Positions 57 to 41,738 of a stretch of 44,300 bases of DNA are shown here, one piece after another. The stretch spans positions 1-44,300 of IMG/VR virus record IMGVR_UViG_3300000956_000057; one strand, 5' to 3'. Both the position numbers and the translations under genes were made by a program. The DNA comes from a virus. The notes under the pieces are model-generated. The model saw only the letters and a list, made by a program, of their open reading frames with translations, ran no database searches and was not told where the DNA came from. The first letter of the stretch is position 1, and every line of letters starts with the position of its first letter.

Positions 57-323
57 TCAGACCTGAATGTCCATCGATGTGTTACCTTGTTCGTCGATCT
101 TTCGATGAACACCAAGAACGTTGAAGCGAACAATCTCATCGATAGCTGCTTCGATTGCGGCGCTCTGATCAGCTTCAGAAAGTTCATCTGAAGTGATTGT
201 GATTCGAGCAAGCAAGCCAGTTGTATGGTAGCCGGCCGCTTCATCGTATGCGTACCACTCATCGAAGTGTGTCCACGGATTGTGTGGATTGTCGACTGTG
301 GTTAGCATGTGCAGTGTGCTCAA
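57..323 (-). CDS. small conserved phage protein, function unknown
   Basis: An 88-residue acidic, soluble protein that I do not recognise. It has no membrane segment or signal peptide. The TTG start at 323 overlaps the stop of the RNA polymerase-like gene (TTGA) and sits 6 bases after a GGAGG site, so it is translationally coupled to that gene and is probably co-expressed. The N-terminal half is rich in His, Trp and Tyr (NPHNPWTHFDEWYAYDE); the middle is a helical stretch of Ala and Glu. The context suggests a role linked to the polymerase-like protein, but nothing in the sequence proves it. Confidence 0.75.
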   Translation of the reverse strand: MSTLHMLTTVDNPHNPWTHFDEWYAYDEAAGYHTTGLLARITITSDELSEADQSAAIEAAIDEIVRFNVLGVHRKIDEQGNTSMDIQV

Positions 324-2929
324 CCCTCACCTCCTATGGATGTCTTGAGTGTGGTCACTGAGACACCAAGGGCTGCTGCCACCTCTGCCTGGGTGTACCC
401 AGAACGAAGCATGGCCTCAGCACGATTCTGCTTACTTGGTGTCATGGTTGCTCGTTCACGTGGGGTTGCGCGTTCTTTTACATTGTCGAGATCAGCGTTT
501 GCAAGGATTCTCTCGAGCTTACTCGCTGAGATAGCACCTGCTTGAATGGCATCCCACTCACTGTCTGTGATCTCAACACGGATCTTCTTAGCACCGGTGC
601 GTGCCCGGGCCATAGCCAAGGCCTGTGCCCTAGCCTTCTTCTGATCCGATGCTTCCATGTCCGGGTTAGCGGCCCGCTTCTGGGCATAGGTGGCGTTCGC
701 TAGGACCTGGGCTTGTCTCTCAAGGGGGGCGTTCCTAAGAGCGACGTTCAACTTCGCGTTGAGGGAGGCCACTTCGTTTGCATAGGCGGTCTTTGCAGAA
801 GGCGATAGGGGGATAGCCTTCGTACGTAGTGCCGCCAACCTAGCCTGATTGGCCAGACCTTTCAGCTTATTGGAGTGGTCGGCATAGACCCTCTCGATGG
901 GGGTACCAGAAGAGAGGTCATGTGCGTTGTCTACCTCTGCTAGCTTGGTCGACTTCTGTGTCTTGGGTACGACCTTGCCTGTTCGGTCGGTGAACGTGTT
1001 ACCCGTCTCGGTAAAGATCTTTCGCCCAGTAGTGGGGTCTGTCTTGAACCCCTGCTTGCGTTCGTTCACTCGGATGTCCGAGCTTGCCCTCGAGATGAGG
1101 GTCTTGGCACCAGCCCGAGCACCACCTTGGTACTTGGACTTCAACTGAGCAATACCGTTGTCGATGGCCGACTGACGATAGTTCAGGTTGTGCTTCTCAG
1201 CATCGATGACAACCATGGAGTGCCGAACTGCTCGAGCAAGCTCGGCGTGGGTAGCGCCACGGATGGTCATGTCGGTGATGAGATTGGAGACCACACCCAT
1301 CTCGATCTGCTTGGTACGTGCGGACATGCGCGGCATTCCCTCATACGCTGCGTATGTCTTCTTTGCGTCGAAGGTCTTGAGTCCCTCGAGTGGTGGTGAG
1401 GTCTTGACTTTCCCGTGGGGATTGGGAATGACCAGCACCGTATCGCCGTCGAAGTCTGCTCCCGAAAGAACCTCAGCCACCTTGTGATGGATGCCGACCG
1501 CATCCTTTGCGTTCCCGATCGAATGCTTGGCTTCGCGGTTGTTGTTGTTCACCGTGAGTTCAGGAATCTCGAAGACGCCACCGTGAGGGTGACGAACAAG
1601 GACGACGCGCTCTCCATTCTTGAAGTTGGGCGCGTAGATCTCATGTTGTTTGATCGAGGCGATCGGAAGGATCACGTGGTTCGATGTGCGAGGAAGGCCG
1701 GCTGCTTTCAGATGTACGGCTGCCGAATCCGCATCATCAGCAAACGACTCGAGCAACTTCTTCTTGACTGTTGGGTTGTTGAGCGACATGATCTCGTCGA
1801 ACTCTCGCTGTTTGCGATCGTAGGTCATGTCGAGTTGACCCTTGGCCAGACTTTTCGACTGCTTCGACAGGAACTGAGACGACAAGGTCTTCGACCATTT
1901 ATCCCAGTCGCCTTCTTCGTTAACCACATTCATGACACCATGTTGACGTTTGATCGATGCTCCAAACGGGCTGTCCGGATCATCGCTCATCTTCTTCATA
2001 GCATCGTGCTTGTTGCCCGTGTCGCTCTTGTTGGTGTTGAAGACGACGTCCACCCCTGCAGGCAAGTCATCCTTGTACATCGCCATGCCTTTGAGGTAGT
2101 GCGTACCGTCAACGGCGATGCGCACCTGTGCATACCGGGAGCTCCCCAACGAGAGATCGTCAAGACCCGGTCGTACGTAGATGACACCATCAGCATTGGC
2201 GCCACCTTCCTCGGCGTAGCGAACCTTCACTCGCTTGGAGCTCAGAGACTTCGGAGGATGGATGGGGATGTAGCTTTTCCCGCCATCTTCCGAGACGTTT
2301 GCGATCTGTCGGATCTTGTCGCGATTCTTGAACACGTCAGAATAGGGGACGTCGGGCTTCGTCAAGACTTTCAGCGTGGTCTGTTTTCCAGTACCAAGCT
2401 GTTCCACCTTGACGTAGTGGACTTTGTAGCCTTCCTCTTTCAGACGAGCCACGGCCACGGCCAGCTTGGTCTGACTCACGCCCGTGTACAATTCTGCGCC
2501 GGCACCGATGTCGAGATATGTCTTCTTCTCGACCTCGTCCTTCAGCATGTTCGAGGTTGCCTCGAGAATGTCGGCACGATCCTTGACGCCGGGCTTCAGC
2601 AAATCGCGCACAGTGGGCTCGGGAATACCCATCTGCTTACCAATGGCAACGTTGGACATGCCCTTGTCACGGAGACGTTGCGCTTCGGTAATCCTGGCCT
2701 GCTTTTCCTCATTCTTGGCGATGGACTTCGCTGCCCGAAGCTGGGTTGTCGTGATGCCCAGGCCGTCGGCGATCTCTTTCTCCGACAGACCTTGTTTCCG
2801 AAGACCCTCCACCATGCCGAGGAAATCCCGGTTGTTCGCGTACTCCGGTCCTCCCGAGCCCCAAGGGTAGCGGCCTGACTTGCGGAGGATGCCGTAGTGC
2901 GCGAGATAGTCACCCTCGCTGATGATCAA
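320..2929 (-). CDS. single-chain two-barrel RNA polymerase-like protein (YonO/QDE-1 group)
   Basis: An 869-residue protein. The sequence SGADFDGDTVLV (DFDGD at 492-496) is the metal-binding signature of the second double-psi barrel of multisubunit RNA polymerases and of single-chain relatives such as YonO of phage SPbeta and QDE-1. The region before it (GLPRTSNHVILP at about 411, then a basic and His-rich stretch) fits the first barrel and the approach to the active site. Residues 1-30 carry a HYG...WG tag (see findings). Helix-turn-helix segments are visible at about 45-70, 85-113 and 835-866, which would let it bind DNA. The start is TTG at 2929, 7 bases after GGAGG, overlapping the upstream nuclease stop (TTGA). 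The likely role is transcription of phage genes. The DFDGD motif is clear; the remaining polymerase assignment is inference. Confidence 0.8.
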   Translation of the reverse strand: MIISEGDYLAHYGILRKSGRYPWGSGGPEYANNRDFLGMVEGLRKQGLSEKEIADGLGITTTQLRAAKSIAKNEEKQARITEAQRLRDKGMSNVAIGKQMGIPEPTVRDLLKPGVKDRADILEATSNMLKDEVEKKTYLDIGAGAELYTGVSQTKLAVAVARLKEEGYKVHYVKVEQLGTGKQTTLKVLTKPDVPYSDVFKNRDKIRQIANVSEDGGKSYIPIHPPKSLSSKRVKVRYAEEGGANADGVIYVRPGLDDLSLGSSRYAQVRIAVDGTHYLKGMAMYKDDLPAGVDVVFNTNKSDTGNKHDAMKKMSDDPDSPFGASIKRQHGVMNVVNEEGDWDKWSKTLSSQFLSKQSKSLAKGQLDMTYDRKQREFDEIMSLNNPTVKKKLLESFADDADSAAVHLKAAGLPRTSNHVILPIASIKQHEIYAPNFKNGERVVLVRHPHGGVFEIPELTVNNNNREAKHSIGNAKDAVGIHHKVAEVLSGADFDGDTVLVIPNPHGKVKTSPPLEGLKTFDAKKTYAAYEGMPRMSARTKQIEMGVVSNLITDMTIRGATHAELARAVRHSMVVIDAEKHNLNYRQSAIDNGIAQLKSKYQGGARAGAKTLISRASSDIRVNERKQGFKTDPTTGRKIFTETGNTFTDRTGKVVPKTQKSTKLAEVDNAHDLSSGTPIERVYADHSNKLKGLANQARLAALRTKAIPLSPSAKTAYANEVASLNAKLNVALRNAPLERQAQVLANATYAQKRAANPDMEASDQKKARAQALAMARARTGAKKIRVEITDSEWDAIQAGAISASKLERILANADLDNVKERATPRERATMTPSKQNRAEAMLRSGYTQAEVAAALGVSVTTLKTSIGGEG

Positions 2930-3486
2930 GAAGGCACCTCCGATCGAAGATACGTCAACTGCTTGTCGAACGTGATGATGCGATCCATGATGTGGAAGAT
3001 CTCATCAGGATCTGGAACACAGACCTTCACATCGTCGTTCTGATAGATGCGAAGCTCCATCTTGATCTCCATCGGTTTGAACCGATACTCGAGACAGAAC
3101 AGTGCTGCGTAGATCAGCAACTGTGTCATCGAGGCTTCGGTCGTTCCCGTTTTCAGATCGTGGACGCGAAGCATCATGTTTCGGAATCCGAGGGAGTCAG
3201 GGGACCCGAAACAATTGTCTGAGTAGTACAAGGTAATCTCGGACTCCATACGGAATCCGATAGCGTCGTTGACGTAGGCGTTGAGGGTCGCCGGGCTTTC
3301 CGGAAGCTTAACACCCAGTCGAATCAACTGGTGTGCCAACGCGTGCAGATCTGTTCCACGTTGTGCCGCCATAGCGGTGTGGAATACTCTCTCGAGCTTC
3401 TCTTCCGTGTAATTCACCCAGTGCGCATTGCTGGGACTCAGGAAGGCATGCCTACCGGCGAGAGTTGAGTGCTTCTCGAAGCGCAT
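2926..3486 (-). CDS. PD-(D/E)XK family nuclease
   Basis: A 186-residue protein with the order of motifs seen in RecB/Cas4-like exonucleases: a helical RGTDLHALAH segment (about 43-52), a Glu in FRMESEI, then GSPDSLGF (Asp at about 96) and VHDLKTG (about 108-114), which gives the D...(D/E)xK core, followed by a helix with a Gln (SMTQLLIYAALF). It probably degrades or trims DNA ends in replication or recombination. It overlaps the VRR-NUC gene by 35 bases upstream and the RNA polymerase-like gene downstream, so the nucleases and the polymerase form one translational unit. There is no iron-sulfur cysteine cluster, so it is not a typical Cas4. Confidence 0.75.
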   Translation of the reverse strand: MRFEKHSTLAGRHAFLSPSNAHWVNYTEEKLERVFHTAMAAQRGTDLHALAHQLIRLGVKLPESPATLNAYVNDAIGFRMESEITLYYSDNCFGSPDSLGFRNMMLRVHDLKTGTTEASMTQLLIYAALFCLEYRFKPMEIKMELRIYQNDDVKVCVPDPDEIFHIMDRIITFDKQLTYLRSEVPS

Positions 3487-3748
3487 TCAAAACTTCCGTT
3501 TCGTTTTCGGGATAGATGAAGGCAGCGAAGCCCATCTCATTCATCCGCTGAACCCACCATTCTTGGTTCGGCTGATGCAACGAAAGAGCTGAGGCTTTCA
3601 CCTCGAGCATGCCCCATCTGGGCCCGTAGAAGATGGTGAGGTCGAGGATTCCCTGTCTGTAGCCGGAATCGTTCTTCACGATCTCGCAGCCAGGGAGCAT
3701 CCGCTGGATCTTCCTGACGAGACGTCCCTGATACACGTTTTCACGCAC
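3452..3748 (-). CDS. VRR-NUC domain nuclease
   Basis: A 98-residue protein consisting almost entirely of a VRR-NUC domain: GRLVRKIQRMLPGCEIVKNDSGYRQGILDL has the Glu/Asp-containing first part (Asp in QGILDLTIF) and WGMLEVKAS supplies the ExK motif (about 47-51), followed by LHQPNQEWWVQRMNEMGFAAFI-type helices (quoted only in part). Stand-alone VRR-NUC proteins are common in phages and act as structure-specific endonucleases, for example on Holliday or replication intermediates. The start is GTG at 3748. It is the first gene after an AT-rich gap with a possible promoter. Confidence 0.8.
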   Translation of the reverse strand: MRENVYQGRLVRKIQRMLPGCEIVKNDSGYRQGILDLTIFYGPRWGMLEVKASALSLHQPNQEWWVQRMNEMGFAAFIYPENETEVLNALREALNSRR

Positions 3749-5774: not shown

Positions 5775-5811
5775 GAAAAACAAAAACCAAGAACCCTTGC
5801 GGGCTCCTGGC
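5775..5811 (-). terminator. rho-independent terminator
   Basis: On the minus strand CCAGGAGCCC (5801-5810) pairs with GGGTTCTTGG (5787-5796) with two mismatches around a GCAA tetraloop, followed by TTTTTGTTTTT. It sits six bases past the stop of the 85-residue gene at 5817-6074 and would end its transcript before the helicase gene. Confidence 0.75.
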
Positions 5812-6074: not shown

Positions 6075-6090
6075 AACGGCTCCTTCGTAT

Positions 6091-6128
6091 GAGGGGTCTC
6101 ATTATAATCCATGTTTTTCCTGCGAAAC
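6091..6128 (-). promoter_or_regulatory. repeated promoter-like element, copy 1
   Basis: Minus-strand sequence: TTCGC, 15 bases, TATAAT, then GAGACCCCTC. It matches the other copies at 17221, 18517, 20266, 20625 and 21021 in the -10 box, the GAGACCCC start region and the distance to the upstream box, which here is TTCGC rather than CTCGC. It lies 17 bases before the start of the 85-residue gene. Confidence 0.75.
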
Positions 6129-15171: not shown

Positions 15172-16077
15172 TCAGATCAGGTCGTAGATGGGACCGTCGA
15201 CGTTGAAGTCCAACCACACCGACTTCTCGTCGCCGCAGACGAACCGGAACCCCTCGTACACGTTGTCGGGGCGGAAAATGCCGAAGTCGACGTAGTTGTC
15301 ACTGTTGCCGCCATCCAGGACCCAGCCGACGATCTGGCCTTCCTTCGTGCGCTCCAGACCGAGGGCGTCGTACACCTCGTTCAAGAACAGGTGACCGCGC
15401 ATCCTGAGCAGGTCATTCATGTAGTTCTGGATGTTCTTCAGGAAGTTCTGGTTGTACCCTCGATCCCTCGACCAGTTCGAGGAGTGCTCGTCGAAGAATC
15501 GGCCATAGATCGACGTGCCGTGCTTGGCGATCTGCTTGGCCTCCTCGACGACCGGCCCTTCGTCGGTCTCGCGGACGATCTCCTTGGACGTCATCTCGTA
15601 CCGGTACTCGAGCTCCTTCTCGGGACCGACGTCGTCGATCACCCGCTGGCGGTAGGCCCGGAACGCCTTGTCCAGACCCGCGTAGGCGGCCGTCACCGCG
15701 GCGTATCGGCGATTCAGCGTCACGTGCGCACCCGTGAGAGCCGCGATGGACGCCGCGCCCACGAGGAAAGCCGGCCCGTACAGCTTGGCGAACTTGAGCG
15801 CGGTCTGCGTGTAGATGATGACCTGGTCGCGCCGCTTCTCCTGCTCGCTGTACTGCTCCGGCTGCACCTGCCGGAACCATTCGGTCTTCTCGATGTTGTC
15901 CTCGTGCTCGCTCAGGATCCGGTCGATCTGCAGCGTTGCCCGCGAGGCCAGCACGACGGTTGCGGCGACACCCACTGCGCCGGCCACGAACATGACCGTT
16001 GGGGAGTGCTTCCGAACGTGGAGGAGCTGTCGCCCCACCTTGCTGGTGACGAAATTGGAAATGGCCTTCAGTTTCAC
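15172..16077 (-). CDS. DUF6353-type membrane protein, copy 1
   Basis: A 301-residue protein starting at GTG 16077 (GTGA overlap with the upstream 47-residue gene; GGAG eight bases upstream). It has an N-terminal membrane segment (PTVMFVAGAVGVAATVVLAS) and a second (YGPAFLVGAASIAALTGAHV), followed by NRRYAAVTAAYAGLDKAFRA and a soluble C-terminal domain ending in VWLDFNVDGPIYDLI. The layout and the NRRYAAVTAAYAGL segment match the copy at 18785-19549 (DRRAAAMAAMYSIS at the same place). DUF6353 proteins are found in many actinophages of this gene set; their role is unknown. Confidence 0.75.
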   Translation of the reverse strand: MKLKAISNFVTSKVGRQLLHVRKHSPTVMFVAGAVGVAATVVLASRATLQIDRILSEHEDNIEKTEWFRQVQPEQYSEQEKRRDQVIIYTQTALKFAKLYGPAFLVGAASIAALTGAHVTLNRRYAAVTAAYAGLDKAFRAYRQRVIDDVGPEKELEYRYEMTSKEIVRETDEGPVVEEAKQIAKHGTSIYGRFFDEHSSNWSRDRGYNQNFLKNIQNYMNDLLRMRGHLFLNEVYDALGLERTKEGQIVGWVLDGGNSDNYVDFGIFRPDNVYEGFRFVCGDEKSVWLDFNVDGPIYDLI

Positions 16078-16908: not shown

Positions 16909-16943
16909 GAAAAACTAAAAGACCTTGTGGGGTCTCCTAGTTT
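16909..16943 (-). terminator. terminator sharing GAGACCCCACAAGG with other cassettes
   Basis: Minus strand: AAACTAGGAGACC, loop CCACAA, GGTCTTTTAGTTT, then TTC. Eleven of thirteen base pairs match. It follows the stop of the gene at 16953 by nine bases. The core GAGACCCCACAAGG is repeated in the terminator at 20056-20090 and its first half equals the start region of the repeated promoter element. Confidence 0.8.
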
Positions 16944-17471: not shown

Positions 17472-17558
17472 CTACCTCGTCACGTGCTTGATGAACAGAA
17501 CGACCCACCAGATGCCACCGGTGAGAACGCCCAGGATCAGATGACCGAGGACCTTCAT
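17472..17558 (-). CDS. 28-residue membrane peptide
   Basis: The product is MKVLGHLILGVLTGGIWWVV followed by LFIKHVTR: one hydrophobic helix with two Trp and basic ends, reminiscent of small host-membrane peptides. Its ATG overlaps the stop of the 202-residue gene (ATGA), and a GGAGGTGAATTC ribosome site lies just upstream. The overlap and ribosome site make it more credible than its length alone would. Confidence 0.65.
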   Translation of the reverse strand: MKVLGHLILGVLTGGIWWVVLFIKHVTR

Positions 17559-18163
17559 GACGAATTCACCTCCTCACTTCGACTCGTGGTGTAGCGGCGC
17601 ATAGCGGCCGTGAGGGTCACCTTGGACCACTTCTTGGGGTTGGTGCCGTAGGTCTTGTCGAACTCCTCCTCGGACATGTCGACGCGCTCCTGGAGGCTGC
17701 GCAGCTCCGGATCCTTGATCGCCGCGTCCTCCATGGCGACGGGCAGCTGCGTGACCGTCATGCCTCGCGCCTTCTGGATCTCGTTGACCCGCTGCATGAG
17801 CTCCTTCGGCATGAGGCCGTTGAAGAACTCGGCGGCGGCTCCGGGCTTCCCGATCAGCTCCATCAGCAGCGCGCCGTACGCCGGAGAGTTGTAGAAGTCG
17901 TCGCGGAACGCCTCTGACTTGTCAAACCGTTTCCCGTCGTCGCTCTTCTTGCCGAGGGCCCGCAGGACGATGTCCTTCATGACACCCAGCATGGAGCGCA
18001 CGTCTTCCGCCGCGACCATCTTTTCGAGCTTCGCCTTCAGCCCGCCCTCGGTCTCGACCTCGAGCTCCATGTCGATGAGCTCCTGGATGGAGAAGTTGAA
18101 GTAGAAGTCCTCCTTGCGCGATTCGTCGTTGAGGTCGGTGTAGGCGATGGTCTTCTTCAGCAC
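17555..18163 (-). CDS. conserved phage protein, possible tail-assembly-chaperone-like family
   Basis: A 202-residue acidic, helical protein starting at GTG 18163, ten bases after GGAGG. The N-terminus (KKTIAYTDLND, then KEDFYFNFSIQELIDME) matches a phage family whose members start with a short beta strand pair and then a long helical body; the middle reads DIVLRALGKKSDDGKRFDKS and SPAYGALLMELIGKPGAAAE (quoted in part). Relatives occur near tail genes in other phages, where they can be chaperone- or structure-associated. Here it sits in the membrane-protein array, so the role is uncertain. Confidence 0.65.
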   Translation of the reverse strand: MLKKTIAYTDLNDESRKEDFYFNFSIQELIDMELEVETEGGLKAKLEKMVAAEDVRSMLGVMKDIVLRALGKKSDDGKRFDKSEAFRDDFYNSPAYGALLMELIGKPGAAAEFFNGLMPKELMQRVNEIQKARGMTVTQLPVAMEDAAIKDPELRSLQERVDMSEEEFDKTYGTNPKKWSKVTLTAAMRRYTTSRSEEVNSS

Positions 18164-18784: not shown

Positions 18785-19549
18785 TTAGCTCACGCGGCAA
18801 TATCCCCGAATGGGATCCACCACAAAGGTCATGACAAGTACGGGTTTCTTGTCCTCGGTGAGTGCCGCGGAGAACTGGAGCTCGAGGAGCTTGTCCGCGT
18901 TCCAGCCCACGTCGTCCGACATGCTCGTCCGAGGGAGACCGATCCGGTAGTAGAAATCGGTCAGCGAGGCGTAGTAGTTGTTGTTCACCTCGTAGTTGAT
19001 CGCGTTCTGAGCCGCCTTCAACTCTTCCATGCTACTGAGGAAGTAACGACCCGTATAGGCGTCCATGCACATCACGGAGCCTTCGCCGATGATGACCTGA
19101 CTCGAAGGCGGGTTGTCGGTCACGCGCTCCTGCGCGATCTCGTCACGATAACCCTGCTCCTTCCGCTCTCCGATCTTCTCGACGACCTTCTCCTTGTACT
19201 CGGCGAACGCGCGCTCGGAAATGGAGTACATGGCCGCCATGGCAGCCGCTCGACGATCACCGACACGATTCGCCGCGATGATGCACGCGATGCTGCAGAC
19301 ACCCACGCCGGCGGCAGGAATATACAGCTTCCAGACCTCGCGGAACTTGTCCTTGGTCCCCAGACGGAACGCCAATCCGGGCTTGAACACGTGTTCCTTC
19401 TCGGCGATCAGTTCGGCAGCCTTGAATGTCGCCTTCCCCGTCAAGTATGCCGTCGCCAGAACGCCAGCGGCCCCGAGACCGGTAAGAATCACCGGCGAGT
19501 GATCCGAGGCATACTTGATGACCTTGTGCACCAGTCCATTAACGTTCAT
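18785..19549 (-). CDS. DUF6353-type membrane protein, copy 2
   Basis: A 254-residue protein with an N-terminal membrane segment (SPVILTGLGAAGVLATAYLT) and a second (LYIPAAGVGVCSIACIIAAN), then NRVGDRRAAAMAAMYSISER and a soluble C-terminal domain ending in PVLVMTFVVDPIRGYCRVS. The arrangement and the DRRAAAMAAMYS segment mirror copy 1 at 15172-16077, so the two are diverged paralogues. The start is ATG at 19549, overlapping the upstream gene by 11 bases. Function unknown; the topology suggests an inner-membrane protein with a cytoplasmic domain. Confidence 0.75.
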   Translation of the reverse strand: MNVNGLVHKVIKYASDHSPVILTGLGAAGVLATAYLTGKATFKAAELIAEKEHVFKPGLAFRLGTKDKFREVWKLYIPAAGVGVCSIACIIAANRVGDRRAAAMAAMYSISERAFAEYKEKVVEKIGERKEQGYRDEIAQERVTDNPPSSQVIIGEGSVMCMDAYTGRYFLSSMEELKAAQNAINYEVNNNYYASLTDFYYRIGLPRTSMSDDVGWNADKLLELQFSAALTEDKKPVLVMTFVVDPIRGYCRVS

Positions 19550-20055: not shown

Positions 20056-20090
20056 GTGAAAACCTAAAACCCTTGTGGGGTCTCAGGTTT
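20056..20090 (-). terminator. terminator sharing GAGACCCCACAAGG
   Basis: Minus strand: AAACCTGAGACCC, loop CACAA, GGGTTTTAGGTTT, then TC. Eleven of thirteen pairs match. It lies 21 bases past the stop of the 44-residue gene. Sequence and design are nearly the same as the terminator at 16909-16943, which suggests the terminators were duplicated together with their gene cassettes. Confidence 0.8.
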
Positions 20091-21009: not shown

Positions 21010-21020
21010 GGTTCTCCTTC

Positions 21021-21056
21021 CAGGGGTCTCACTATAAGGCTTGTAAAGCCCGCGAG
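21021..21056 (-). promoter_or_regulatory. repeated promoter-like element, copy 6
   Basis: Minus strand: CTCGCGGGC, 11 bases, TATAGT, GAGACCCCT. It is the first copy met after the virion operon and begins nine bases past the holin stop, so it would drive the small-protein array independently of late transcription. Confidence 0.8.
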
Positions 21057-30978: not shown

Positions 30979-31701
30979 CTAGAGCGAACTGATCCGATAC
31001 GTATAGCCGCTCACAAACACTACAGACGGCCAAGAAATTCGATACGTCCCGGATCCCAAATCTTGAACCGCTTCATCCGGACCTTCAATGGTGTAACTCC
31101 CATCCCCATTATCGGTCACTTTCAGGATGGAATTTTCATCGAAGAGCTCGAGAACTTGATCCGGATTTGGTAGTTGAGGTGTGTTGACATCACTGCCATA
31201 CAACAAATCCTCAAGCGCCTCAATGGTCCAAGAATATGCATCTGCAGTTTCGATCACGAGATGCGCACTGGGCCGAGCTCCTGGAATCGTGTCGGTCGTT
31301 GTCGAGAAGTTCCAAACGAACAGATCCGTTTCGGATTGTTGGTGGGAAATCCCCGCCGGGGAAATTATCACGTTGTATACCAGATGAAGTGTTGAACTTT
31401 CGCCCTTCATCGTGCGATATGACAACCCGAAAGGATCTTTACGCCAGTCGTCGCTCAACGGCTCGTACAGCGAGTCAGGATATGTATACGCCTGGATTGT
31501 TCCCGCGAACTCCTCGGGATGCCGACGGGAATATGTCTTCGCCCCGTCAATATACCGAAACGAAAGCTCCGCGCCTGAAGTGTCATCTTGGATGGAGACT
31601 AAACCGTCCCACGTCTCGCCAGGGCCGACTCGCGGGTAGAATACACCACGATCGAGACCTGTCTCATAAAGCCGTGGTTGATTCCACGTCAATCTGGTCA
31701 T
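30979..31701 (-). CDS. tail tube paralogue, copy 3
   Basis: A 240-residue protein starting at ATG 31701 (ATGA overlap with copy 2). Shared signatures with the tail tube protein at 32905: RLYETGLDRGVFYPRVGPG at the N-terminus, YIDGAKTYSRRHPEEFAGTI, DPFGLSYRTMKGE, HLVYNVIISPAGIS, and ALEDLLYGSDVNTPQLPNPD at the end. The C-terminal extension (about 50 residues, ending in SGYTYRISSL) differs. It is probably a minor tail component. Copy 2 follows the chaperone, then this copy, so the three genes are not simply adjacent. Confidence 0.75.
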   Translation of the reverse strand: MTRLTWNQPRLYETGLDRGVFYPRVGPGETWDGLVSIQDDTSGAELSFRYIDGAKTYSRRHPEEFAGTIQAYTYPDSLYEPLSDDWRKDPFGLSYRTMKGESSTLHLVYNVIISPAGISHQQSETDLFVWNFSTTTDTIPGARPSAHLVIETADAYSWTIEALEDLLYGSDVNTPQLPNPDQVLELFDENSILKVTDNGDGSYTIEGPDEAVQDLGSGTYRISWPSVVFVSGYTYRISSL

Positions 31702-34422: not shown

Positions 34423-36411
34423 TTACGCAGCCGGACGAGAGAACGTCCAGGTGGTCTCCTCCGCCGGCGTGGACATGAAGTACCCGGTCGCCGGGTACGC
34501 CCGCACCGTCAGGTGGGCGCCAGCCGCCAGGGCCGACTGAGCACCGGAGGACAGCGTCGCGTTGGTCTCCGCGTTCTTGTAGGTCACGCCGGTCTGCGAC
34601 GGGATCGTGACGACGAAGGTGGAAGTGTTGAAGGTCGGCGCCGGTGCCGTCACCTGAACGTTGGTGGTGGTCGTGGTACGGATGACCATCGCCGACTTGA
34701 TCATGGTGAGTGCGCCCGACAGCCGGGTCTCGATCAGGTACTTGAACTGGTTGTAGTCGATGTCGAAGTCGTCGAACAGCGTGACCTCGCCGCCCTTGTC
34801 CGTACCGACGTTGTAGTCGGACAGGTTGACGATGACGCCGAGGATGTCGGATCCGGCCCGCTCCACGATCTGGCGCGGAACCTCCACGATCTCGTCGACG
34901 TTGAGCGCCAGGGCGAGCTCGGCCTTGTTGTTCCACAGGCGCCGGCCCAGGGTGTCCTTGGTCAGCAGCATCTCGACGATGAGCGACGGCGTCGCGTACA
35001 GCTTCGGCGAACCCGTACCCAAGTAGAACTGCCGGGCGCGGAGGATGGTCTCGACGATCTCCTCGTAGTTCGGCGTACCGGTGAGGTTGACGTACACGGG
35101 CGTCGCGAACAGCTCGTTCTCGTTCACGATCGCGCGGATGCCGGCGCCCTCGGCGGCACTTCCCGGGTCCTTGATCTTGTCCTCGTCACCGACGTCGCGG
35201 CCGTCCGAGAAGATGATGGCGGAGGCCAGCTCCTCCTCGAGCATGACGCGCATCTCGGCCTTCATGATCGGCACGATGTCGACGTCGATGTCGAGCAGGT
35301 CGTCGCGGTCCAGCTTCTGCTTCTTGTAGACCGTGGTCGGCGACGTGGTCCGACGCAGGAGACCGAACCACTCCTCCTTCTTGTAGTTCCCGGTGATGTA
35401 GCCCTTGGCCCGAGCGTCGTCCTGGGTGATGTCGGCCCAGACCGTCTTGACCCGCGAGAAGGGGCTGCGGCCCAGGCTGTTCAGCACGCCGGAGACCCAC
35501 GCCGTCTGCCGCTTGATCCACTGGAAGGTGTTGCCGTCGGGGTTCTTCGCGTCCGGGAACAGGACGTCGAGGTTGGTGATCCCGTGCGCGAGACCATAGG
35601 CCTCCACCGCGGCCTTCAGCGAGCCACGACGCTCGGCGTCGGCGAGGATCCCCTTCATGGCGTCGTGAGACAACGTGTGCTGGTCCTCGCCGGCGGCCTG
35701 ACCGGCCTGCTGCTCGAAGACGTTCCGCTTGCCGGTCATGTCCGAGTTGTTTCCTTCCTCGTGTTCGAGATTGTTGTCCGAACTGTCGGCCTGCGCCATG
35801 GCGTCGCCGTCCTGCTTCTGCCGAAGAGCTTCTCCGACCATGAAATGCAGAACCTGCTTCTCCTCGGGGAGCATGGCGTCGTAGATCTCCTGGATGGTCG
35901 CTCCGCCGGCATCCTCCGCGTGCTCGACCACCTCTGTTGCCGAGTGCTCCAGACCCTCCATCATCCGGATGACAGCCTCATCCTCCACCGTGGTGAAGTC
36001 GTTGGGGTCTTCCGAGTGTTGGACCTGTACGAAATCGATGACGGCCTTGGGGTTGGCGCCGGCCAACACAAGACTCACCTCGCGGATGATGCCATGAAGC
36101 ACCTGCTTGGCGTGCTCCTTGAGCTGGTTTGCGAAGATGGACATGGAACGAATGTCCCCATGCAGGACCATCTTCTTGGCGTGAAGGCCGCCCGGAGTAT
36201 CGTTCAGGTAGGCGTACCCGTACATGCCATCGTCACGAGCCTCGAGCTTGACGTGACCGAGGACATTCTCGACGTTGCCGTGCGTGTGCTGCCACACGAG
36301 AGGGACCGTCGCACCGTGCATGTGAGCAAATGCCTGCGGCGTGATGGTCCTACCGTCGGAGCACTTGACGCCAGCCTTCGTGACGTATCCGCTGAAGTCA
36401 GCTTCTGTCAT
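34423..36411 (-). CDS. fused prohead protease - major capsid protein (HK97 type)
   Basis: A 662-residue fusion. Residues 1-130 are an S78-type prohead protease: a His in VPLVWQHTHGN (about 42-44), DIRSMSIFAN with the catalytic-type Ser at about 91, and IIREVSLVLAGANPKA. An acidic, helical scaffold-like linker (about 130-225) follows, then an HK97-fold capsid domain from DMTGKRNVFEQQ (Met225) to about 565 (KGYITGNYKKEEWFGLLRRT, VERAGSDILGVIVNLSDYNV, TRLSGALTMIKSAMVI). The last 85 residues are an Ig-like domain (TVVTIP-type, TGVTYKNAETN). A start at ATG 35739 inside the gene, after GAGGAAGGAA, could also yield free capsid protein. Confidence 0.85.
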   Translation of the reverse strand: MTEADFSGYVTKAGVKCSDGRTITPQAFAHMHGATVPLVWQHTHGNVENVLGHVKLEARDDGMYGYAYLNDTPGGLHAKKMVLHGDIRSMSIFANQLKEHAKQVLHGIIREVSLVLAGANPKAVIDFVQVQHSEDPNDFTTVEDEAVIRMMEGLEHSATEVVEHAEDAGGATIQEIYDAMLPEEKQVLHFMVGEALRQKQDGDAMAQADSSDNNLEHEEGNNSDMTGKRNVFEQQAGQAAGEDQHTLSHDAMKGILADAERRGSLKAAVEAYGLAHGITNLDVLFPDAKNPDGNTFQWIKRQTAWVSGVLNSLGRSPFSRVKTVWADITQDDARAKGYITGNYKKEEWFGLLRRTTSPTTVYKKQKLDRDDLLDIDVDIVPIMKAEMRVMLEEELASAIIFSDGRDVGDEDKIKDPGSAAEGAGIRAIVNENELFATPVYVNLTGTPNYEEIVETILRARQFYLGTGSPKLYATPSLIVEMLLTKDTLGRRLWNNKAELALALNVDEIVEVPRQIVERAGSDILGVIVNLSDYNVGTDKGGEVTLFDDFDIDYNQFKYLIETRLSGALTMIKSAMVIRTTTTTNVQVTAPAPTFNTSTFVVTIPSQTGVTYKNAETNATLSSGAQSALAAGAHLTVRAYPATGYFMSTPAEETTWTFSRPAA

Positions 36412-40788: not shown

Positions 40789-41738
40789 TAGTACCCCTTG
40801 GTGAATGCCAAGACATACCACTTATCGGCGGTGGCGTTATAAACAGCGCCCATGAAATCGTGCTTGCCGGCCGCAGTGGACAGGACAACCGCCGTGATGT
40901 CCGTACCGAACGCGAACTTACTGCCGAGCGTGATTGTCCGACTGCCTGTACCGTCTTGGATGAACTCCCAGATGACAGATTGGCCGTCCGTCATGCCGGT
41001 CGGATTCGAGAGGGTTCGGTTGCCGCCGAGGGTCACTCGAAATCGGTTACCCGTCGTGCAGTCGGTAGCGATCGTGGCTCCGTCAGTCAGGACTTGGGTA
41101 ACTCGGTTGAGATCGCCAGGGTCTCCCTGAGGGCCGGTTGCGCCAGTAGCTCCTGTTGCACCCGTAGCACCGGTTGCGCCAGTATCACCTGCAGGACCTT
41201 GAGCGCCCGTGGCTCCAGTCGCTCCGGCAGGGCCCACGAGCGAGGCGAGCCATGCGGATTCGGTACCAACGAAACCATTAGCGACCGCTACCTCGTAGGC
41301 GGATGCTCCGTCGTCACCTTGTGGTCCTTGAGATCCTGTAGCTCCTGCGGAACCCGTTGCGCCTGTCGCGCCGGTTGCTCCCGTGGCTCCAGCCGGACCG
41401 GTGTCGCCAGTGTCACCTTTGGGTCCTGCGGGACCCGTCGGACCGGTTGCGCCGGTGGCTCCTGTTGGTCCGGCTGGGCCCGTCGGACCTGCAGGACCGG
41501 GCGGGCCTTCGACTCCTTCGAGAACCGCATCCTCGAGGGCTACCTGGATGCGAACATCGATCTTGTCACGATCGATGAAGTAGGGCAAGGTGTTCCAGGT
41601 GTGAACACCATCTCCCATTTTGAACTGACCGGTGTCGATCTCAACGCCCGGTTCTCCAGCAAAGAGAACCGGATTGTCGGTCGTCCACTCAGCGGCCGGA
41701 CCTCGTCGAAGTTTGAAGGTGAATTCGGAAACAGACAC
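40788..41738 (-). CDS. collagen-like tail fibre with Mtd-type N-terminal domain
   Basis: A 316-residue protein starting at GTG 41738 (GGAGG seven bases upstream). Residues 1-70 ([40 protein letters not shown]) are the N-terminal domain known from the major tropism determinant of Bordetella phages. Two collagen-like Gly-X-Y blocks follow at about 75-145 and 170-215, separated by [22 protein letters not shown]-terminal beta domain ([20 protein letters not shown] ... [12 protein letters not shown]) closes the protein. It is predicted to be a trimeric fibre. No reverse transcriptase or template repeat of a diversity-generating system is visible in this window. Confidence 0.85.
41105..41515 (-). 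repeat. collagen-encoding short repeats
   Basis: Two low-complexity blocks (about 41105-41235 and 41320-41515) encode Gly-X-Y triplets, mostly Gly-Pro-X and Gly-Ala-Thr. On the plus strand they appear as recurring 'ggttgcgcc', 'gctcctg' and 'cccgt' units. Such DNA is prone to repeat-number change, so the fibre length probably varies among relatives. Confidence 0.8.

Follow-up and report, generated by a model that had tools for sequence, protein, structure and literature searches.

The DNA analyzed here (the window) is a stretch of 44,300 nucleotides, a virus record of IMG/VR. Its genes all point in one direction, and it is essentially collinear with complete Scapunavirus genomes, for example, that of Streptomyces phage RosaAsantewaa (42.7 kb). 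The second-last gene, preceded by helicase, HNH, VRR-Nuc, and Cas4-like genes, is an ORF of 869 codons on the minus strand that runs from 2929 down to 320, including the stop codon. Its TTG start overlaps the stop codon of the Cas4-like gene upstream. A preliminary description of the window had reported an 869-residue product with a DFDGD motif at residues 492–496, and both were found again, with the motif at 1456–1442. It had also placed the gene at the far end of its operon; in the genome, the gene is not the last one, because a small conserved gene follows.

57..323, minus strand: small conserved partner gene (PHROG 4303) that immediately follows the polymerase gene in 15 of 15 genomes compared
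320..2929, minus strand: gene of the predicted single-chain two-barrel RNA polymerase (PHROG 4291), TTG start (ORF, profile match, models)
2926..3486, minus strand: Cas4/RecB-like exonuclease gene of the polymerase operon (phrog_3953, E = 4e-76)
3452..3748, minus strand: VRR-Nuc-type endonuclease gene of the polymerase operon (phrog_93; VRR-Nuc annotation in relatives)

The PHROG 4303 protein has 88 amino acids counted from a TTG codon, or 83 from the ATG at 308, and shows the pattern MLTTxDNPxNPxTxxDEW.... Few proteins of the phage group are as strongly conserved, and it is a candidate accessory subunit of the polymerase. The longest small ORF at this place (41–262, in another frame) was rejected as a decoy; the conserved frame is 57–323. 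The window proteins present in 13 of 13 other genomes are the polymerase, its PHROG 4303 neighbor, Cas4, VRR-Nuc, the helicase, the ssDNA-binding protein, and the DNA polymerase, as well as a DUF6353 membrane protein and PHROG 4079. Among these universally conserved proteins, only the polymerase gave a helix-turn-helix (HTH) match in the scans made.

Several other genes of the window deserve mention. Two paralogous DUF6353 (PHROG 2152) membrane proteins are encoded at 15172–16077 and 18785–19549; since one copy occurs in 13 of 13 relatives, from Streptomyces to Lactococcus phages, this protein belongs to the conserved core of the group. A tail assembly chaperone-like protein (17555–18163; Phage_TAC_17, E = 2e-40) is encoded remote from the tail genes, among the short genes that follow the lysis cassette. 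The capsid-maturation protease and the major capsid protein are fused (34423–36411; PHROG 3270), and the tail fibre gene contains collagen-like tandem repeats of 9, 18, and 36 nt (41125–41469).

Family, domains, and predicted fold of the polymerase

The protein matches the PHROG 4291 profile with E = 0 and 1330 bits (residues 4–866 on profile positions 7–906 of 909). The polymerase is matched by 250 phage records, 249 of which align over at least 80% of the protein, and the hosts of these phages are Arthrobacter, Gordonia, Streptomyces, Lactococcus, Curtobacterium, Rhodococcus, Microbacterium, and others. More homologues (44–58% identity) were found in prophage-like loci of many Firmicutes. 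The P078-type polymerases are ~39–43% identical to that of the window, and scans using distant family members returned one locus or none. Members of PHROG 4291 include CL92_gp048 of Rhodococcus phage ReqiPepy6, orf75 of Lactococcus phage 1706, and gp54 of Streptomyces phage RosaAsantewaa. They share with the window polymerase the full-length homology, the VRR-Nuc/Cas4/polymerase/small-gene neighborhood, and the promoter-like element described below; the window polymerase is an ordinary member that differs in nothing essential from the rest. The family is labeled "RNA-dependent RNA polymerase," "HTH protein" or "helix-turn-helix," and "hypothetical," with helix-turn-helix in most phage records, and our literature search found no published function for it. 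Homology had already led PHROGs and RefSeq to label the protein as a polymerase, and the predicted enzyme is of a known kind. The regions of the protein correspond to the following segments.

2594..2833, minus strand: N-terminal tandem helix-turn-helix, residues ~33–112 (Pfam HTH_23 and others; model helices)
1916..2185, minus strand: predicted first (beta-like) barrel region, residues ~249–338, with invariant Q268-V-R270 and K280-G281 (model strands, alignment invariance)
1424..1684, minus strand: predicted second (beta-prime-like) barrel region, residues 416–502, with invariant R446-x-P448 (models, alignment)
1442..1456, minus strand: DFDGD, putative catalytic metal-binding triad, residues 492–496 (sequence, alignments)
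335..439, minus strand: C-terminal helix-turn-helix, residues ~831–865 (Pfam Sigma70_r4_2/HTH_3/HTH_24)

The three HTH regions noticed earlier (residues ~33–68, 83–112, and 831–865) are backed by Pfam HTH_23 (3e-9), Sigma70_r4_2 (4e-7), and HTH_3 (6e-7), each matching two stretches, and they agree with the helices of the predicted model. Pfam thus places the fused DNA-binding parts, also part of the preliminary description, at both ends of the chain. As these HTH matches are the only Pfam matches above threshold, the protein could be taken for a catalytically dead polymerase relic retained as a DNA-binding regulator. We give this reading very little credence, because a relic would not preserve invariant catalytic residues: D492, D494, D496, Q268, R270, K280, and G281 are invariant in 95 aligned homologues and in 80 further ones reaching down to 44% identity (~175 in total, spanning several phyla), and the RxP motif is conserved in both sets. 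The invariant triad, the E value of 0 with PHROG 4291, and the coverage of at least 80% in 249 of 250 records indicate that the combination of DFDGD and HTH regions in an 869-residue protein is more than chance.

AlphaFold models of the full-length protein (pLDDT 83) and of its core (residues 228–625, pLDDT 88.5) were compared with known structures by Foldseek. The top PDB matches of the core were exclusively single-chain two-barrel RNA polymerases, in line with the initial assignment: QDE-1 (E = 1.4e-11), P32 gp64 (2.9e-11), P74 gp62 (7e-11), and RDR2 (5e-9). For QDE-1, P74 gp62, and P32 gp64, the probability was 1.00 and the query TM-score 0.49–0.59, which denotes a match at the level of the overall fold. 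The full-length model also matched QDE-1 (E = 1.7e-9). Its global TM-scores are low (0.30–0.35), and such poor superposition is expected if the domain arrangement differs. The model puts DFDGD on the loop directly before strand 497–502, with which the second barrel region ends, where the preliminary description had expected it. R270 and K280 are invariant and, by eye, ordered as in AQVR...KG of P23-45 gp64, a likeness at the level of sequence order. The kinship was seen by fold comparison because PDB sequence searches with the protein and two profiles gave no significant polymerase match. Pfam RdRP (PF05183, QDE-1/RDR) scored 15.6–17.2 bits on the window polymerase, below its gathering cut-off of 23.8; it matched 81 of 85 homologues at E < 1 (best, 2.2e-5). 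The two outcomes named at the outset as refuting the assignment, a model lacking two double-psi barrels or a DFDGD placed away from the barrel-2 loop, were looked for in the predicted models and not observed. Taken together, the models support membership of the single-chain two-barrel RNA polymerase superfamily by fold, and template-dependent synthesis is predicted.

According to its label in PHROGs and RefSeq, the enzyme would be an RNA-dependent RNA polymerase that copies RNA in the infected cell. The nearest solved relatives do include two RNA copiers, QDE-1 and plant RDR2, and the weak PF05183 match points the same way. However, the label was given by homology only, and the characterized phage members, YonO and P23-45 gp64/gp96, use DNA templates, extending RNA on DNA-template scaffolds (PMC5467207, PMC10770324). 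Moreover, QDE-1 structures have also been solved with DNA templates, and a DNA promoter-like element tracks the polymerase family. RNA copying is thus highly improbable in our judgment.

A promoter-like element that accompanies the polymerase

The element has the pattern TCGCA-N4-TTACA-N5-TATAATGA and, including a downstream GAGACCCC in close relatives, spans ~36 bp; a weight matrix and intergenic inspection gave the consensus TCGCAnGAATTACAtGGCCTATAATGAGACCCCTAC. A repeat search found six 36-nt copies in the window, all on the coding strand, intergenic, and in front of short genes. They score 30–50 bits, versus a maximum of −4.5 bits in 20 first-order shuffles. The copies located by repeat search and weight matrix, and a seventh, degenerate site, are as follows.

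6090..6125, minus strand: promoter-like element copy, 46.0 bits
17219..17254, minus strand: promoter-like element copy, 42.0 bits
18515..18550, minus strand: promoter-like element copy, 50.3 bits
20264..20299, minus strand: promoter-like element copy, 48.1 bits
20620..20655, minus strand: promoter-like element copy, 30.0 bits, GAGACCCC part diverged
21020..21055, minus strand: promoter-like element copy, 39.5 bits
3788..3823, minus strand: degenerate class-II element TATAATAGAAGG, upstream of the VRR-Nuc/Cas4/polymerase operon (same variant in relatives)

The class-II variant also occurs in Rosa, Moozy, Scap1, Pepy6, CapnMurica, and Egad, and a variant TATRATAGAAGGGA precedes the VRR-Nuc/Cas4/polymerase operon in many relatives. 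Its position before the operon of the polymerase itself suggests self-amplification. In 184 unique sites, the five positions of the TCGCA block, which lay outside the search pattern that found these sites, are conserved to 99, 100, 100, 95, and 90%, and conservation extends downstream to GAGACCCCTAC. The spacing between TTACA and TATARTR is exactly 5 in 66 cases, versus 6 cases in 13 other spacings combined. The elements of collinear genomes are concentrated in the stretch from the lysis genes to the DNA polymerase gene, where they precede short genes that often encode membrane proteins. No publication describing the element was found in our literature search. A terminator-like hairpin, GAGACCCCACAAGG(G/T)(C/T)TTTTAG-TTTT in gene sense, is repeated at 5783–5808, 16911–16936, and 20059–20084. 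The units that these hairpins follow begin with the promoter-like element, and the GAGACCCC string is common to hairpin and element.

The association was examined in both directions. A strict inner pattern occurs in at least 120 stretches in IMG/VR; a scan of bacterial and archaeal genomes (257 Gb) did not return it once. From motif to gene, a match to the polymerase family was found in 36 of 44 motif-selected IMG/VR records (≥31 kb); it was strong in 35 and weak and partial in one (E = 8e-8). The remaining eight were rejected as counterexamples since they all end before the polymerase locus; lacking the Cas4 neighbor and ending near or before the DNA polymerase gene, they are evidently truncated. 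From gene to motif, the element was found in 26 of 26 long polymerase-selected IMG/VR contigs, with ~162 coding-strand matches, compared with 2 on the opposite strand and 1 for a reversed-pattern control. Each of 16 named polymerase-bearing phages, from Streptomyces to Lactococcus, has 4–16 copies at a 14-of-18 match threshold, and the controls phiC31, sk1, part of SPbeta, and part of P23-45 gave 0, 1, 0, and 0 matches. Computation shows that the element exists and is conserved, on which strand and where it lies, and that it strictly co-occurs with the polymerase. In the flanks of Firmicutes prophage polymerases, a survey covering 6 kb on each side of the polymerase gene, TTACA-N5-TATAAT showed no enrichment in most cases (5 matches in 0.99 Mb).

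Lactococcus phage 1706 has about eleven TCGCATGTTTTACATATACTATAGTAGAAAG-like sites and P078 carries the TTTTACATACCCTATAATGARAGGA form, a contrast of TATAGTAGA versus TATAATGA. A 448-nt non-coding stretch with CTATCACGAAAAAACTTCGGGAAAACTTCGGGATTG repeats (L360:46037–46484) immediately precedes the polymerase gene of 1706. Another sequence, AATAGATGTGCTATCA(GACTATACGGGC), is conserved and recurs between genes in the two Lactococcus phages (L360:14863–14923 and 31057–31125; L155 near 35635).

Proposed reading of the element and comparison with known systems

We infer that the protein is enzymatically active on a DNA template and that it, not the host RNA polymerase (RNAP), reads the element; its expression timing is deduced likewise. 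The polymerase is the likely reader of the element. The main competing model is that host RNAP acts with a phage activator, since a good −10 hexamer is present in most copies: the element would then be a class of host sigma-A promoter with an activator box, bound by a phage DNA-binding protein (possibly the HTH polymerase itself) that recruits host RNAP, and the polymerase would do something else. The element would in that case resemble the middle promoters of phage T4, which combine a MotA box with TATAAT. The near-perfect bacterial −10 (TATAAT) in most copies, a GAGA sequence resembling the sigma-A discriminator, and TCGCA-N4-TTACA upstream, where an activator could sit, all fit this model. 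However, the 184 sites have no conserved −35 TTGACA ~17 bp upstream of the −10, their conserved blocks lying at other distances, and conservation continues downstream to GAGACCCCTAC. The universally conserved proteins scanned include no second HTH protein. Furthermore, the hexamer drifts while its flanks stay conserved. Of the two L. lactis phages, 1706 has TATAGT (9/11) and P078 has TATAAT (10/13); of the two Streptomyces phages, RosaAsantewaa has TTAAAT (3/6) and Miek has TATA(G/A)T; Pippin15 (TTTAAT, 3/5) and G050 (TAGTAA, 3/3) have also drifted. The −10-like hexamer differs by phage, not by host, which favors a phage polymerase over a host sigma factor as the reader, and its difference between phages of one host counts against the activator model since an activator would not alter what sigma reads. 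We therefore regard reading by host RNAP as unlikely. The co-occurrence itself could reflect common descent of the whole replication/early module, because other components show the same co-occurrence: the DNA polymerase, the helicase, Cas4, VRR-Nuc, the ssDNA-binding protein, the small partner, and two unknown families.

Here, we propose that the protein is probably a DNA-dependent single-chain two-barrel RNA polymerase that transcribes phage units from its own phage-specific promoter. D492, D494, and D496 of the second barrel would bind the metal for catalysis, in which the basic R270 and K280 of the first barrel would take part. Transcription of phage units would start from TCGCA-N4-TTACA-N5-TATAATGA promoters, located mostly upstream of short genes from the lysis cassette to the DNA polymerase gene. 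The promoters would probably be read by the N- and C-terminal HTH parts of the polymerase itself, perhaps assisted by the PHROG 4303 partner. The phage-specific promoter-like element lends indirect support to the earlier suggestion that the predicted enzyme may transcribe phage genes independently of a host polymerase.

In the original GenBank record of Lactococcus phage 1706 (EU081845), the orf75 homologue is called a "structural protein," and the ReqiPepy6 record repeats this label. Packaging of the polymerase in the virion is thus possible. The label reportedly stems from particle proteomics; if so, the polymerase would be present in the virion and injected, unlike P23-45 gp64. We consider it conceivable, but somewhat doubtful, that Gram-positive siphophages of 43–60 kb package and inject the polymerase for early transcription from TCGCA-N4-TTACA-N5-TATAATGA in several host phyla without host RNAP. 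Such a system would consist of one protein and one promoter and need no sigma factor, the promoter readers being the HTH parts of the polymerase itself.

For the question of how single-chain two-barrel RNA polymerases find promoters, an enzyme is now paired with a candidate promoter that is sharply delimited and deeply conserved. Since every polymerase-bearing phage checked carries the element, the enzyme and its probable start signals can be tested together, in phages whose hosts (Streptomyces, Gordonia, Arthrobacter, and Lactococcus) are easy to grow. If confirmed, the proposal would provide an orthogonal transcription system that is compact and has no relation to T7 RNAP, as well as a handle on the function of two-barrel polymerases without sigma factors, and it would explain a protein mislabeled in hundreds of genomes of little-studied Gram-positive phages.

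YonO of Bacillus phage SPbeta is likewise a phage-encoded single chain with a DxDGD triad. It has 839 residues, so the statement that the window protein (869) is considerably larger was wrong. Profile alignment of the two failed (hhalign probability 4.6%, with an off-site alignment, and 0.2%), and YonO is a functional analogue by superfamily only. YonO transcribes the late genes of SPbeta, and its promoter sequence was stated to be undetermined (PMC5467207); the SPbeta region tested holds 0 copies of the element. The nvRNAP of Thermus phage P23-45 (gp64) resembles the window polymerase in its AQVR...KG and GADxDGD motifs, and nvRNAP structures were matched by Foldseek; a single-sequence profile alignment with gp64 was weak, yet fell on the right motif (GADYDGD). 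In P23-45, too, promoter motifs, described as AT-rich and GC-rich, track the polymerase in relatives (PMC10770324). In contrast to the window polymerase, gp64 is shorter (616 amino acids) and its phage infects other hosts; gp64 is absent from virions, the vRNAP being gp96 (PMC10770324). The QDE-1/RDR silencing polymerases, which match the fold of the core best (E 1e-11), are eukaryotic, lack the HTH ends, and share 14–15% identity. The gp66 protein of crAss-like phage phi14:2 is also a phage single-chain two-barrel RNAP and is packaged in the virion, whereas it has 2166 residues and a weak fold match (E = 5.6e-4). What looks new is the promoter-like element, its co-occurrence with the polymerase across phyla, the arrangement of HTH parts on both flanks, and the conserved small partner.
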